Below, piece after piece: positions 5,097 to 25,573 of a DNA stretch of 32,208 nt. Each line of letters begins with the position of its first letter. The first letter of the stretch is position 1. The notes below the pieces were generated by a model that saw nothing but the letters and a program-made list of their open reading frames with translations, had not been told where the DNA came from and ran no database searches. The DNA comes from Methanofollis sp. (GTDB lineage: Archaea > Halobacteriota > Methanomicrobia > Methanomicrobiales > Methanofollaceae): NCBI GenBank assembly GCA_030156225.1, contig JASGMW010000009.1, positions 1 to 32,208 of the forward strand. Direction: 5' to 3'. Position numbers and translations under genes: made by a program.

Positions 5097-5110
5097 GGAA
5101 AGATGTTTCC
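5097..5110 (-). promoter_or_regulatory. NrpR-type operator of amt1
   Basis: GGAA-AGATGT-TTCC matches exactly the GGAA-N6-TTCC operator known for the euryarchaeal nitrogen repressor NrpR. It begins eight bases downstream of the TATA box (minus strand) and covers the predicted transcription start, where a bound repressor would block initiation. Confidence 0.85.
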
Positions 5111-10365: not shown

Positions 10366-10379
10366 GGAAACAAATTTCC
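10366..10379 (+). promoter_or_regulatory. NrpR-type operator of glnA
   Basis: GGAA-ACAAAT-TTCC is an exact GGAA-N6-TTCC match. It begins eight bases after the TATA box, the same spacing as at amt1, and ends four bases before the glnA ATG. For the divergent glutamate synthase operon it lies upstream of the TATA box. Confidence 0.85.
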
Positions 10380-10382
10380 GTT

Positions 10383-11711
10383 ATGTCAGCCGACGCGGTT
10401 GCAGCAATGCTGGAAAGAATCAAGGCGGATAACGTAAAGTTCATTCGTCTGCAGTTTTCCGACCTGACGGGTCACCCGAAGAACGTCGCCATTCCGCACA
10501 TCCAGGCCGAGAAGGCCCTGACCGACGGAATCGGATTCGACGGCTCTTCCATTGAGGGATTCGCCAGGATCGAAGAGTCGGACATGGTCCTCAAACCTGA
10601 CATCTCCACTTATTCGCTCCTCCCCTGGAGAAAAGGAGACGCAAAGGTCGCCCGTTTCATCTGCGATGTGTACAAGCCGAGCGGCAAGCCCTTCGAGGGC
10701 GACCCCCGCTTCGTCCTCAAGAAGACCCTTGCAGAGGCCGCATCGATGGGCTACACCTTCAATACCGGCCCGGAACTCGAATTTTTCCTCTTCAGGATGT
10801 GCGACGGAAAGCCGAGCACCGAGTTCCAGGACCTCGGCGGCTACTTCGACCTCGCTCCGACCGATCTCGCCGAGGACGTCCGTCGGGACATCGTGCTCGC
10901 ACTGACCGAGATGGGCTTCGAGATCGAGGCCTCCCACCACGAGGTGGCCGAGAGCCAGCACGAGATCGATTTCAAATATTCAGACGCACTCCGCACGGCC
11001 GACAACGTCGTCACCTTCAAGTTCGCCACGAAGACGATCGCCCTGCTCAACGGGCTCCACGCGTCCTTCATGGCGAAGCCGGTCTTCGGGATCAACGGCA
11101 GCGGCATGCACACCAACTGCTCCCTCTTCAAGGACGGGAAAAACGCCTTTTACGATCCGGACGCACCCCTGCAGCTCTCGGAAACCGCCCTGTTCTTCAT
11201 CGGCGGCGTACTCAAGCACATCCGCGCCATCACCAGGATCGCAAACCCGACGATCAACTCGTACAAGCGGCTCGTCCCGGGTTATGAGGCTCCGGTCTAC
11301 ATGTCGTGGAGTGCTGCGAACAGGACGGCGCTCTGCCGCGTCCCGGCGCCCCGCGGCAACAGCACCCGCGTCGAGATCCGCAGCCCCGACCCGACCTGCA
11401 ACCCGTACCTCACCTTCGCCGCCATCCTGGCGGCAGGTCTGGACGGCGTGAAGAACAGGATCGCACCGCCCCCCAGCACCGACCGGAACATCTTCAAGCT
11501 CAACGAGGAGGAGCGGAAGGCGGCCGGCATCGACACCCTGCCGGGCAGCCTGTACGAAGCGAACGCCGCCCTCATGGAGGACGAGTTCATCTGCAACGCC
11601 CTTGGCTCCCACGTCATCGAGAACCTCAATACGATCGCCGGGATGGAGTGGGACGCCTTCAGGACGATGGTCCACCCCTGGGAACTCAAACAGTATCTCT
11701 CCAAATACTAA
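10383..11711 (+). CDS. glnA: Glutamine synthetase type I
   Basis: This 442-residue enzyme makes glutamine from glutamate, ammonia and ATP, the main entry of ammonium into metabolism. Signatures are [17 protein letters not shown] (about residues 58-74), the metal and glutamate sites GPELEFFLF and [12 protein letters not shown], and the ATP/glutamate segment [16 protein letters not shown]. The adenylylation Tyr segment of class I-beta enzymes is not seen, and length fits the I-alpha class. No ribosome binding site sits just upstream, and the predicted transcription start is within a few bases of the ATG, so the message may be leaderless. An internal ATG (10407) is the alternative start. Confidence 0.97.
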
Positions 11712-11745: not shown

Positions 11746-11759
11746 GGAAGGGGGTTTCC
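11746..11759 (+). promoter_or_regulatory. NrpR-type operator of amt2 operon
   Basis: GGAA-GGGGGT-TTCC is a third exact GGAA-N6-TTCC match, beginning four bases after the TATA box and reaching to just before the predicted transcription start. Confidence 0.82.
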
Positions 11760-11835: not shown

Positions 11836-13032
11836 ATGGCCATTGATACGGGTGACACGGCATTCGTACTCGTCAGCACCATCCTCGTAATGCTGATGAC
11901 CCCGGCCGTCGGACTTTTCTACGGCGGCCTTGTCAGGCGCAAGAATACCATATCGATGATCGCCCTCTCGTTCATCGCATTTTCCCTGGTTACGGTGCAG
12001 TGGATGTTCATCGGCTACACCCTCGTCTTCGGCACCGACATCGGCGGATTCATCGGCGGCCTCGACCACCTCGCCCTCGCGGGTGTCGGCATGGACGGCG
12101 ACGGCATACCGGACCTGCTCTTCATGGCGTTTCAACTCACCTTCGCCGCGGTGACCCTCGCCATCGTCACGTCGGGTGCGGCCGAACGGGTGAAGATCAG
12201 TTCCTTCATCGTCTTCGGGCTGCTCTGGACGACGCTGGTCTACGACCCCATCGCACACTGGGCATGGGGCGGCGGATGGGCCCGGACCATGGGGGTGCTC
12301 GACCTTGCCGGCGGGATGGCCGTGGAGATCTGCTCGGGATTCGCAGCACTCGCCCTCTGCCTTGTGATCGGCAAGAGGGCCGGTTACGGCATGTATTCGA
12401 TGGAACCGCACAACATCCCGATGACCCTCATCGGCGGCGCACTGCTCTGGTTCGGGTGGTTCGGCTTCAATGCGGGAAGCGTGCTTGCCGCCAACGGTGC
12501 GGCGGCAAACGCCCTCGTCACCACCAATGCCGCGGCCGCAGCCGGGGCGCTTGCCTGGCTCTTTGCCTCCTGGTACCGGGGCAGACCGAGTTCGCTCGGC
12601 ATGATCTCGGGCGCCATCGGCGGCCTTGTCGCCATCACGCCCGCCGCAAGTTTCGTCGACCCGATGGGGGCGCTCGTCATCGGGGCCGTTGCAGGCCTGT
12701 TCTGCTACGGGGCGATGCTCCTGCGCATCCGTCACAATCTCGACGAGAGCCTTGACGCATGGGCCATCCACGGCGTCGGGGGACTATGGGGCACCGTGGC
12801 CACCGGCATCTTTGCAGTGGCGGCGGTCGGCGGAACGGCAGGCCTCCTTTCCGGAAACCCCGGGCAACTCCTCATCCAGATCGTCGCCGCCGTCGCCGCG
12901 ATGGTATACGCGTTCGGCATGACCTACCTCCTCGCAACAGGAGTGGACCGGCTGATGGGGCTGCGGGTGAGTGAAGAGGAGGAGTATGTGGGGCTGGACA
13001 TTGCCCAGCACGGTGAATCGCTCCAGATGTAA
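11836..13032 (+). CDS. amt: Ammonium transporter Amt2, first pore His replaced by Glu
   Basis: This 398-residue Amt-family channel starts directly with the first membrane helix ([19 protein letters not shown]) and has no signal peptide. Family motifs are [21 protein letters not shown] (from residue 141), [11 protein letters not shown] and the second pore His312 in [11 protein letters not shown]. The first pore His is missing: the aligned residue is Glu164 ([10 protein letters not shown]; codon GAG at 12325-12327) where Amt3 has His164 in [10 protein letters not shown]. Fungal Mep1/Mep3 carry the same change. GGAGG precedes the ATG. It leads an operon with a small ORF, amt3 and glnK2. The change could alter proton coupling or make it a sensor; this is inference. 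Confidence 0.95.
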
Positions 13033-13039
13033 GTACGAT

Positions 13040-13093
13040 ATGATTAAATAAGGTAGAATATAACTTCCTTCCATAAATGGAATGGTGACTGAT
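13040..13093 (+). promoter_or_regulatory. Possible internal promoter and palindrome before the small ORF
   Basis: ATGATTAAATA near 13040-13050 could be a TATA box. TTCCAT-AA-ATGGAA (13069-13082) is a perfect inverted repeat with the half-sites reversed relative to the NrpR operator. GGTGA at 13084-13088 is the ribosome binding site of the next gene. This suggests that the small ORF, amt3 and glnK2 may also be expressed apart from amt2. Confidence 0.4.
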
Positions 13094-13396
13094 ATGCGCC
13101 CGGAAGAGTATGCGATGTACCTGGGAACAGGGAGCCTGTCGGCCGGAGATCCGGGCAGGTCCACCTATGGCCCACAGGACTATGATGCCAGACATGTCAG
13201 CCCCGTCACAATCGCCGTCGTCAAACGGTTCTGGGAAGAAACCAGCCGTGCAGCAGCGATTTCAGCAGGGATTGAAGCGATTGTGGGCAGCACCCCCGAG
13301 AGCCGCGCCCTGGCCGCCGCAGCCGAGATGTTCTGGGAGGGGTCGATGGTCGACGATGTCGTGACCAACCACGCCGTTTGCTGTCAGGTGATCTGA
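13094..13396 (+). CDS. Unknown 100-residue protein between amt2 and amt3
   Basis: I do not recognise this protein. The frame opens at 13082, but GGTGA five bases before the ATG at 13094 sets that start. It is soluble, has no clear membrane segment, and looks mixed: a Gly/Tyr-rich N-terminal third ([13 protein letters not shown]) followed by alpha-helical, Ala- and Glu-rich sequence ([20 protein letters not shown]), and a C-terminal tail NHAVCCQVI with paired Cys. Its end carries GGTGATCT, which is the ribosome binding site of amt3 (GTG at 13398, one base after this stop codon), so translation of the two is tightly coupled. Codon use matches the neighbours. Its place between two Amt channels suggests a role in ammonium sensing or transport, but nothing in the sequence proves it. 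Confidence 0.7.
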
Positions 13397-13397
13397 A

Positions 13398-14594
13398 GTG
13401 CCGATAGATTCCGGCGACACTGCGTTCGTCCTCATCTGTACGGCGATGGTCATGCTGATGACACCGGGGGTCGGACTTTTCTACGGTGGCCTGGTGCGGC
13501 GGAAGAACATCATCGCAATGATCTCCCTCGCCTTCATCGCCTTCTCAGTGGTCTCTCTCCAGTGGATCCTCTGCGGCTACTCGTTCGCCTTTGGGACGGA
13601 TATCGGCGGATTCATCGGCGGCCTCGACTATCTCGGCCTTGCGGGCGTCGGCATGGACGGCGACGGCATACCCGACCTGCTGTTCATGGCGTTTCAACTC
13701 GTTTTTGCCGGCCTGACCCTTGCGATCGTCACCTCGGGCGCAGCCGAACGGATGAAGGTCAGTTCCTTCATCGTCTTCGGGCTGCTCTGGACGACGCTGG
13801 TCTACGACCCGCTCGCACACTGGGCGTGGGGCGGCGGGTGGGCGGCGTCCCTGGGCGCCCTCGACTTTGCGGGCGGCACAGTCGTCCACATCTCCTCGGG
13901 CTTCGGGGCGCTGGCGCTGGCACTGGTGATCGGCCGGCGGGTCGGCTTCGGCACCTATACGATGGAACCGAACAACATCCCGCTGACCCTCATCGGCGGT
14001 GCACTGCTCTGGTTCGGGTGGTTCGGCTTCAATGCAGGAAGCGCCCTTGCGGCGAACGGCCTCGCGGCGAACGCCTTCGTGGTCACCAACACATCGGCGG
14101 CCGCCGGTGCGATTGCGTGGCTTGTCGCCTCCTGGTACCGCGGCAAACCGAGTTCTCTCGGCATGATCTCGGGCGCCATTGCCGGTCTGGTCGCCATCAC
14201 GCCGGCGGCAGGGTTCGTCGATCCCCTCTCGGCGATCGCGATCGGCGCGATTGCAGGGCTGCTCTGCTACGGCGCCATGCTCTTCCGCCTGCGCCGCGGC
14301 CTCGACGAGAGTCTTGACGCCTGGGCCATCCACGGCATGGGCGGGCTCTGGGGAGCGATCGCAACCGGCATCTTTGCAGTGGCGGCGGTCGGCGGTGTCG
14401 ACGGCCTTCTCTACGGAAACGTCCATCAATTTCTCATACAGGTCGTCGATGCCTGTGCAGCGCTCGTCTACGCCTTCTGCGTGACCTACGCCCTTGCATG
14501 GATCGTCGACAGGACGCTCGGCCTCCGTGTCAGCGAAGAGGAAGAATATGTGGGCCTCGACATCTCCCAGCACGGGGAGTCGACCCGGGTGTGA
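13398..14594 (+). CDS. amt: Ammonium transporter Amt3
   Basis: This 398-residue Amt channel is a close paralogue of Amt2, the same length and collinear throughout, including the shared tail [11 protein letters not shown](A/S)QHGES. It keeps both pore histidines, His164 (TVVHISSGF) and His312 ([10 protein letters not shown]). The start is GTG ([11 protein letters not shown] follows), with GGTGA upstream inside the preceding small ORF. glnK2 follows after 12 bases, so Amt3 and Amt2 are the likely P-II targets. Stretches of near-identical DNA shared with amt2 point to a fairly recent tandem duplication or gene conversion. Confidence 0.96.
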
Positions 14595-14606
14595 GGTGGC
14601 ATGATG

Positions 14607-14936
14607 ATGAAGATGATCATCGCGGTGATACGCCCGGAAAAATTCGAACAGGTGGAAAAGGCCCTTACAGAAAAGGGTTTCCCGGCAATGACCGTCTCCG
14701 AGGTGCGGGGACGGGGGGAACAGAAGGGGATCGCTCTCCGATCCCGCGGCGGTCCGGTGACCGTCGACCTGATCCCGAAGATCAGGATCGAGATGGCGGT
14801 CCCGGCGACCTTCGCCGAGACCGTCGTCCAGATCATCAGGGAAGCGGCCCGGACCGGCAAAATAGGCGACGGCAAGGTCTTCGTCCTGCCGCTTGATATG
14901 GCGGCAAAGGTCCGGACCGAGGAGGTGAGCATCTAA
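14607..14936 (+). CDS. glnK: P-II family protein GlnK2 lacking Tyr51
   Basis: This is a P-II protein of about 109 residues closing the amt2-ORF-amt3 operon. ATGs at 14601, 14604 and 14607 are in frame; 14607 matches the family start (MKMIIAVIRPEKF) and lies seven bases after GGTGG. The C-terminal P-II signature TGKIGDGKVFVLPLD is intact. The T-loop differs from GlnK1: after GEQKGIALRSRGGP the residue at position 51 is Val, so the Tyr uridylylated in bacterial P-II is absent. It should still bind nucleotide and block Amt channels, but its T-loop contacts are probably adapted to Amt2/Amt3. There is no sign of a uridylyltransferase gene nearby. Confidence 0.94.
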   Translation: MKMIIAVIRPEKFEQVEKALTEKGFPAMTVSEVRGRGEQKGIALRSRGGPVTVDLIPKIRIEMAVPATFAETVVQIIREAARTGKIGDGKVFVLPLDMAAKVRTEEVSI

Positions 14937-24029: not shown

Positions 24030-24803
24030 ATGCATGCTTCCCTGGAAGATCCTGTCAGTATTACAGAAGCCCTCAAAACACTCGGACTTACAAAGTATGA
24101 GGCGCTTGTCTATGTCGCCCTCCTCAAGGTCACCAGGGCGACGGCAACCGAGATCCATGAACTCTCCGGGGTGCCGCGCGCATCGGTATATCCAGCTCTC
24201 GACCGACTCTTCCAGAGAAATATGGTGACGATCTCCCATGCCACCCCGAAACGCTTCTCCGCCATTCCGCCGGGCGAGGCGGTCGATTCTCTCATGCAGG
24301 GAATAGACGAAAAGGCGTCGTATGCAAAAGAAACGCTCCAGAAACTGTACGACCGGAGAGGGGCACCTGACGGGAGCGGACAGGAGCTGGTCTGGACCAT
24401 CACCGGCGATGCGAATATCACCGCGAGGCTCAAGAACCTCATCGCTCAGGCGACAGATCAGATCCAGTTAATAGGGAACTGGCAGCTCATTGAGGACCTC
24501 GGCGAAACTCTTGCCCTGGCGGCGGAGAGGGTCAGGATGGAGGTCATCACCGAACGGCAGGAGGGAGAGATCTACCCGGACATTCCGATCATTACCGTGA
24601 TTGCGCCGAGCGGGCACGCCGAGATGCAAAATCAGGAACGGGCGGGCATAATCCTTGTAGACAATTCAAAGGTGGTGGTGGTGGTGGGATCGCAGGGTGA
24701 GACCCCGACCGCCCTGTATTCTGAGTCGGATGGATTTTACCGATTTTTCTCCACATCCTGGGCTCTGGTACGCGGCTACGGCAGAGCGCTCGATCAGAAG
24801 TGA
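24030..24803 (+). CDS. TrmB family transcriptional regulator
   Basis: This 257-residue protein has the N-terminal TrmB winged helix (ITEALKTLGLTKYEALVYVA, then SGVPRASVYPALDRLFQRNM, residues 10-65), a linker helix, and a C-terminal phospholipase D-like sensor part (about 110-255). These regulators usually bind sugars or related ligands. It has no ribosome binding site and a TATA-like CATTTATCT about 27 bases upstream, so it may be leaderless. It is divergent from the surface protein gene, the most likely target. Its end overlaps the convergent NrpR-domain gene by ten bases. Confidence 0.88.
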   Translation: MHASLEDPVSITEALKTLGLTKYEALVYVALLKVTRATATEIHELSGVPRASVYPALDRLFQRNMVTISHATPKRFSAIPPGEAVDSLMQGIDEKASYAKETLQKLYDRRGAPDGSGQELVWTITGDANITARLKNLIAQATDQIQLIGNWQLIEDLGETLALAAERVRMEVITERQEGEIYPDIPIITVIAPSGHAEMQNQERAGIILVDNSKVVVVVGSQGETPTALYSESDGFYRFFSTSWALVRGYGRALDQK

Positions 24804-25573
24804 TGGATCGGTTCAAGTCGGGATACGTCGATCAGGCCCTTGAGCGAGTTGATCTCGACCCGATACCCTGCTTCTTTTACTGCCGCCATCACATTGGTCC
24901 CACCGAGTATTGCGATGCCGAAATGCTGGGGAGAACAGGCGAAATCGAGGATAGGAGCGTTCGGCGGGCCGATCTCGAGCACGCCGGCGATCAGGCTCCG
25001 CTCCAGGTCCTCGATGACGGCCGCAACCGTGGCTTCGGCCTCCATATGACATTCCCGAAGGTTGGCGAGCACGCTGCCGCGGCCTGTCGCGACGACCCCT
25101 GAGACGTTGGTGATGTCCTGAGAGACGAGCAGTTCAAGCGGGTCGATGGTCGTGGCGTCATAAAGCACCATATCGGTAAAACGCCGCGGGGTGCCGCCCT
25201 CGATCTGCACCACGCCCCCACCGATCGGATGGAGGGGAACGCCCCGCCGGATCATCACGCCGTCAAGTGTGATCGAGCAGACGGTGCAGATCCCGACCAG
25301 TCCCTCAGGGACCGTGTACCCCCCGGCCTTCTCTCCCGTCTGAAAGATCTGGACCAGGCCGCTCGGGCTGATGCCCGCCCTGTAGGTCTCCTTTACGACG
25401 GCGAGAACGGCGTCCAGATCGTCGGCAGCCACAAGCGAGAGATTGTAGATGACCTTTCCCTCGTTCTCTGCAGGGTCGTAGGTCACCTGCATCGCCTCCT
25501 CTTCGATCAGGTGGTTGAGGAATTTCAGGGGGTGGTTCACATCATACACTCGCCACAGAGAGAGAAAAATCAT
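24794..25573 (-). CDS. Stand-alone NrpR regulatory-domain protein (DUF128)
   Basis: This 259-residue protein is a single NrpR regulatory domain (PF01995), which senses 2-oxoglutarate in the nitrogen repressor NrpR. Visible features are VTYDPAENEGKVIYNLSLV, GICTVCSITLDGVMIRRGVP, TTIDPLELLVSQDITNV and the tail GGTNVMAAVKEAGY. The winged-helix domain that precedes it in full NrpR is missing: upstream sequence in frame shows no helix-turn-helix. The ATG at 25573 is preceded by GGAGG at only two bases; a later ATG is at 25492. It resembles NrpRII-type partners, which act with a DNA-binding NrpRI. It likely affects the operators at amt1, glnA and amt2, together with a partner outside the window. 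Confidence 0.88.
   Translation of the reverse strand: MIFLSLWRVYDVNHPLKFLNHLIEEEAMQVTYDPAENEGKVIYNLSLVAADDLDAVLAVVKETYRAGISPSGLVQIFQTGEKAGGYTVPEGLVGICTVCSITLDGVMIRRGVPLHPIGGGVVQIEGGTPRRFTDMVLYDATTIDPLELLVSQDITNVSGVVATGRGSVLANLRECHMEAEATVAAVIEDLERSLIAGVLEIGPPNAPILDFACSPQHFGIAILGGTNVMAAVKEAGYRVEINSLKGLIDVSRLEPIHHF

Follow-up and report, generated by a model that had tools for sequence, protein, structure and literature searches.

An open-reading frame at 13094-13396 (forward strand) of the window, the whole 32,208-nucleotide stretch of Methanofollis DNA analysed here, encodes a 100 amino acid orphan protein between two ammonium channel genes, and that it is a genuine gene for a small protein is well supported. 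We place the ORF beyond chance because three orthologues, each of 100 codons, are free of indels and because residues 35-100 fall below neutral simulations; the protein thus divides into a variable N-terminus (residues 1-34) and a constrained C-terminal part (residues 35-100) which is predicted to be helical.

Conservation of the ORF and its product

Read directly, the ORF begins with ATG at 13094 and ends with TGA at 13394-13396. The original prediction placed a ribosome-binding site, GGTGA, five bases ahead of this ATG, and it is indeed present at 13084-13088 (+); both the start codon and the GGTG-N5/6-ATG arrangement are conserved across all four orthologues, with a spacing of five to six bases. 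The genus sample comprised 12 genomes, four of which carry the ORF: the window genome, G003, G005 and G011. Each of the four copies comprises exactly 100 codons, and they align without gaps, frameshifts or indels, unlike the 60 bases 5′ of the ORF, where indels are present among the same genomes. Identity to the window copy is 62-63% in G005 and G011, and 38% over the full length in G003. Invariant residues are grouped as IAV.KRFW, RAAA.S, RAL, FW.G and T..AV across the four orthologues. The last residue is invariant too, perhaps on account of the amt3 ribosome-binding site rather than a need of the protein.

Compared with the neighbouring genes, the ORF evolves faster by a factor of five to ten, with an omega of ~0.49 (window genome vs. 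G005 and G011) against ~0.05-0.10 for amt3, glnK2, amt2 and glnA (~0.06 for Amt3/GlnK2). Residues 35-100 are under purifying selection which is weak but real (omega 0.35-0.45; only 0.07-1.4% of neutral simulations were as low), whilst residues 1-34 are indistinguishable from neutral in simulation. Counting against a coding role, the 11 changes between G005 and G011 are distributed evenly over the codon positions (3, 4 and 4; omega 0.9, from few events). Codon use had been described as like that of the neighbours, and this holds in so far as none of the other five frames scores higher, yet the resemblance is weak, at 0.15 bits per codon vs. ~0.55 in amt2, amt3 and glnK2.

AlphaFold returned a pair of helices (residues 37-64 and 68-81) flanked by ends modelled with very low confidence. 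The pLDDT was 53, or 62 when the C-terminal part was modelled by itself, so that a helical fold is suggested at low confidence; comparison of two such low-confidence models with the PDB gave nothing significant. Hydropathy indicated no transmembrane segment (highest 19-residue Kyte-Doolittle mean 0.84). That the protein has no known domain was upheld, with no match in Pfam or NCBIfam at E ≤ 10, and none in PHROGs or the PDB. A structured leader RNA within the ORF was considered and rejected (RNA fold z +0.72, no Rfam match).

Gene neighbourhood, probable promoter and putative operator

Upstream of the ORF lie a gene at 10383-11711 (+), whose putative product is glutamine synthetase (glnA) and which has orthologues in all 12 genus genomes, and the ammonium channel gene amt2 (11836-13032, +; PF00909). 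Downstream are a second channel gene, amt3 (13398-14594, +; PF00909, E = 1.8e-132), which starts with GTG at 13398, and the P-II gene glnK2 (14601-14936, +; PF00543, E = 4.7e-28). The twin-His positions confirm Amt3 as His/His, but the "His/Glu" given for Amt2 has the order reversed, as the first of the paired histidines is replaced by Glu and the second is retained (Glu/His). The Amt2 motif GMAVEICSG, with Glu for the first twin-His, occurs in all four carriers (window 11836-13032; L014:9420-10613; L015:8700-9893; L013:8772-9937). The first His is retained in amt1, amt3 and those relatives whose motif could be read, and amt3 and these relatives have His at both positions. Amt2 is thus a natural Glu/His channel variant, of a kind known from some fungal Mep proteins. 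In an alignment with E. coli GlnK, whose residue numbering is used here, the T-loop Arg47 is retained in GlnK2, which has no Tyr at 46 or 51, unlike GlnK1 with its Trp46 and Tyr51.

The spacer between amt2 and the ORF contains a TATA-box-like sequence, ATTAAATA (13043-13050, +; read directly), a probable promoter of ORF-amt3-glnK2, with TTAAAT at the matching place in the other three genomes. It is followed by the NrpR-operator-like AGAATATAACTTCC (13055-13068, +), which has one mismatch to GGAAN6TTCC, the NrpR binding site in methanogens (PMC2723118). One-mismatch operator matches are as frequent in the window as expected (16 found, 15.8 expected), so that a single such match carries no significance by itself, but G003, G005 and G011 match GGAAN6TTCC perfectly at the aligned position. 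Exact matches were found ahead of amt2 (GGAAGGGGGTTTCC, 11746-11759, +) and ahead of glnA (GGAAACAAATTTCC, 10366-10379), and a further exact copy precedes amt1, at 5097. Given that amt2 and the ORF are separated by both the TATA box and the operator, an ORF-amt3-glnK2 unit probably begins with the ORF, and NrpR would repress this unit through the putative operator. Two proteins with the NrpR effector domain (NRD) are encoded in the genome, one within the window and the other on contig C41. The window copy (~24794-25551, −; E = 8.1e-85) apparently leaves no room for a DNA-binding part and is adjoined by a TrmB-type regulator (24030-24803, +).

At the 3′ end of the ORF, the sequence AGGTGATC (13386-13393, +; read directly) would serve as the ribosome-binding site of amt3, and the amt3 start follows the ORF stop by one base, both as originally described. 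Its counterpart is GGTGATC in G005 and G011 and GGAGGCGATC in G003, and stop and start are one or two bases apart in all four genomes. Translation of amt3 is likely coupled to that of the ORF. Judged from these sequence features, an operon of ORF, amt3 and glnK2 is well supported; its genes would be co-transcribed, probably under NrpR control.

Distribution of the ORF and the tandem amt locus

The gene order glnA-amt2-ORF-amt3-glnK2 is the same in all four carriers, and the eight other genomes have none of ORF, amt2, amt3 and glnK2 but keep amt1-glnK1; glnA and glutamate-synthase-like genes are in place in each of the six non-carriers whose glnA region was read. The ORF is therefore found in 4/4 genus genomes with the amt2/amt3 cassette and in 0/8 without it. 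In a glnA tree the four carriers form one clade (support 90/88), and the linkage of ORF and amt is thus one inherited arrangement and not a repeated, independent association; as the co-occurrence reflects a single event, the perfect match is weak as statistics. The original prediction had asked whether homologues always sit beside amt, and all those found do lie between amt2 and amt3, though within this one clade. It had also held that a lack of homologues in related genomes would count against the gene, whereas three orthologues occur in other species.

Further afield, neither the 232 class genomes nor the 394 phylum genomes sampled yielded a homologue that held up, and none was found in phages, plasmids, viral contigs or the GTDB contig set. 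The weak class-wide matches (L008, L009, L010, L011, L012 and L183) were rejected as chance: they are partial and low in score, none is near amt, and most lie within unrelated larger proteins or against other frames. The best explanation is that the ORF originated in, or was retained by, a single clade of the genus alone. We found no paper tying Methanofollis to ammonium transporters in the literature searched.

Several genomes from other families of the order carry a tandem locus of the form amtA-glnK-[operator]-amtB, in many cases preceded by glnA and followed by another glnK. Like the locus described here, these glnA-amt-glnK-amt-glnK loci have two amt genes, some after glnA, and an NrpR-type operator before the second unit. 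However, what separates their amt genes is a glnK and not the ORF described here, and their second amt falls on a different branch of the Amt tree. In that tree amt2 and amt3 group together (99/95), amt2 being sister to the amt3 group with a long branch (0.32), and stand apart from the relatives' amtB group (100/100), so the tandem described here seems to have arisen by a separate duplication. The ORF takes up the leader of its second amt unit, and the corresponding leaders in the relatives hold no ORF resembling it. Three of these genomes, G058, G082 and G083 (L163:5512-5919, L164:4284-4721, L165:4612-5047), share a conserved leader of ~190 bases from operator to second amt, with no long ORF, bearing ACAGATGG towards its start and CCATCTGT towards its end in two of the three. 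Rfam gave no match for the loci scanned, and RNA folding was unremarkable in a single tested stretch of leader that excluded the first repeat.

The glnK between the relatives' two amt genes raises the idea that the ORF is the decayed first glnK of such an arrangement, which would fit its place between two amt genes and its length (GlnK/P-II proteins, PF00543, have ~100-110 aa and are likewise encoded beside amt). This is scarcely credible, as six frames in each of the four genomes gave no P-II signal (local profile best E 5.1; hhalign probability 0.1%), the relatives have their operator downstream of the first glnK whereas here it is upstream of the ORF, and amt2 and amt3 group apart from the relatives' second amt in what looks like a separately formed tandem. 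We rejected the P-II relic on the missing P-II signal and on the position of the ORF after the operator, not before it. The T-loop and the RTGxxGDGK nucleotide-binding motif are absent from all four orthologues, the predicted fold is helical and not ferredoxin-like, and a true P-II protein, GlnK2, is already encoded in the same operon. The original statement that the ORF is not a P-II protein thus stands, there being neither a Pfam or NCBIfam match nor P-II similarity in any frame.

Possible roles of the product

We tentatively read the ORF product as a soluble helical accessory protein of Amt3 and GlnK2, a reading by analogy to which we give somewhat less than even weight; that it binds Amt3 or GlnK2 is a guess. 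The original proposal of a new channel partner or nitrogen sensor is thereby partly supported. The G011 amt2 (L013:8763-9937) has lost ~ten internal residues and is frameshifted around residue 335; the gene is probably broken, whilst the adjacent ORF-amt3-glnK2 is intact. A partner, if there is one, is therefore more likely to be Amt3 or GlnK2 than Amt2. Under plentiful nitrogen, NrpR would repress the unit; under scarce ammonium (high 2-oxoglutarate) NrpR would release it, the ORF would be translated, and ribosomes ending the ORF would go on to start amt3. The product, predicted to be mainly an alpha-helical segment over residues 37-81, would then act at the site of its co-translated partners and might tune the closing or releasing of Amt3 by GlnK2, as has been proposed for sP36.

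The sP36 report (PMC10714827) describes a 61 aa protein of Methanosarcina mazei without a membrane helix, which moves to the membrane once ammonium is raised and through which GlnK1 is proposed to inhibit AmtB1; its level rises when nitrogen is limiting, and the same cells have an amt/glnK operon controlled by NrpR. Both are small methanogen proteins without a transmembrane helix, and by its position and probable regulation the ORF product could work in a similar manner on Amt3 and GlnK2, a comparison of role rather than of sequence. The ORF differs in having 100 aa against 61, in lying inside the amt operon and in being confined to one clade of another order, an order not listed in the published range of sP36, which covers Methanosarcinia, Halobacteria and a few bacteria.

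An accessory role at the channel is countered by the tandem amt-glnK units of related families, which run without such an ORF, and the fast evolution of the ORF would be unusual for a protein docking on two nearly frozen partners, Amt3 and GlnK2. The even spread of changes between G005 and G011, the poor AlphaFold models and the single origin of the linkage also count against such a role. The ORF product could instead be a young, clade-specific protein of nitrogen limitation acting away from the channel, for example on another nitrogen enzyme, or with little function as yet, which sits where it does since the promoter was there. The restriction of homologues to one clade, the high omega with a near-neutral N-terminus and the low codon adaptation would all follow, but a place between operator and amt3 kept in four species, with the one-base junction, and the lack of a second copy elsewhere in the window genome, speak against it, and we consider this possibility somewhat unlikely.

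Alternatively, the ORF may matter mainly in cis, its translation opening or supplying the amt3 ribosome-binding site whilst most of the protein sequence drifts. The position of that site in the last codons, the gap of only one or two bases from stop to start in 4/4 genomes, and the weak amino-acid constraint, with residues 1-34 neutral, are consistent with such a role; it is nevertheless distinctly unlikely, given that residues 35-100 are constrained at the amino-acid level, that the invariant KRFW, RAAA, RAL and FW motifs are not needed by a ribosome-binding site, that the RNA fold is not unusually stable and that the relatives' second amt genes have no such leader ORF. An untranslated chance frame in the spacer would account for the low codon-use score, and in neutral simulations of single pairs the frame stays open in 13-26% of copies, but 300 bases without indels over four genomes, a conserved start and ribosome-binding site, and purifying selection at residues 35-100 make it very improbable.

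The product might even form a third component, an adaptor or sensor, of an archaeal Amt3-GlnK2 gate, a new clade-specific family independent of sP36 at a locus with a Glu/His channel, which we regard as rather unlikely. The sP36 report states that archaea encode no GlnD (PMC10714827); sP36 is the one small-protein answer found in the literature searched to how, then, the nitrogen signal reaches archaeal GlnK and Amt. If true, another small protein, unrelated to sP36 and built into an amt-glnK operon, would point to a repeated origin of adaptors of this kind. If the ORF is only a coupling frame or a young, weakly functional gene, it would still represent a clean, clade-specific insertion into a nitrogen operon.
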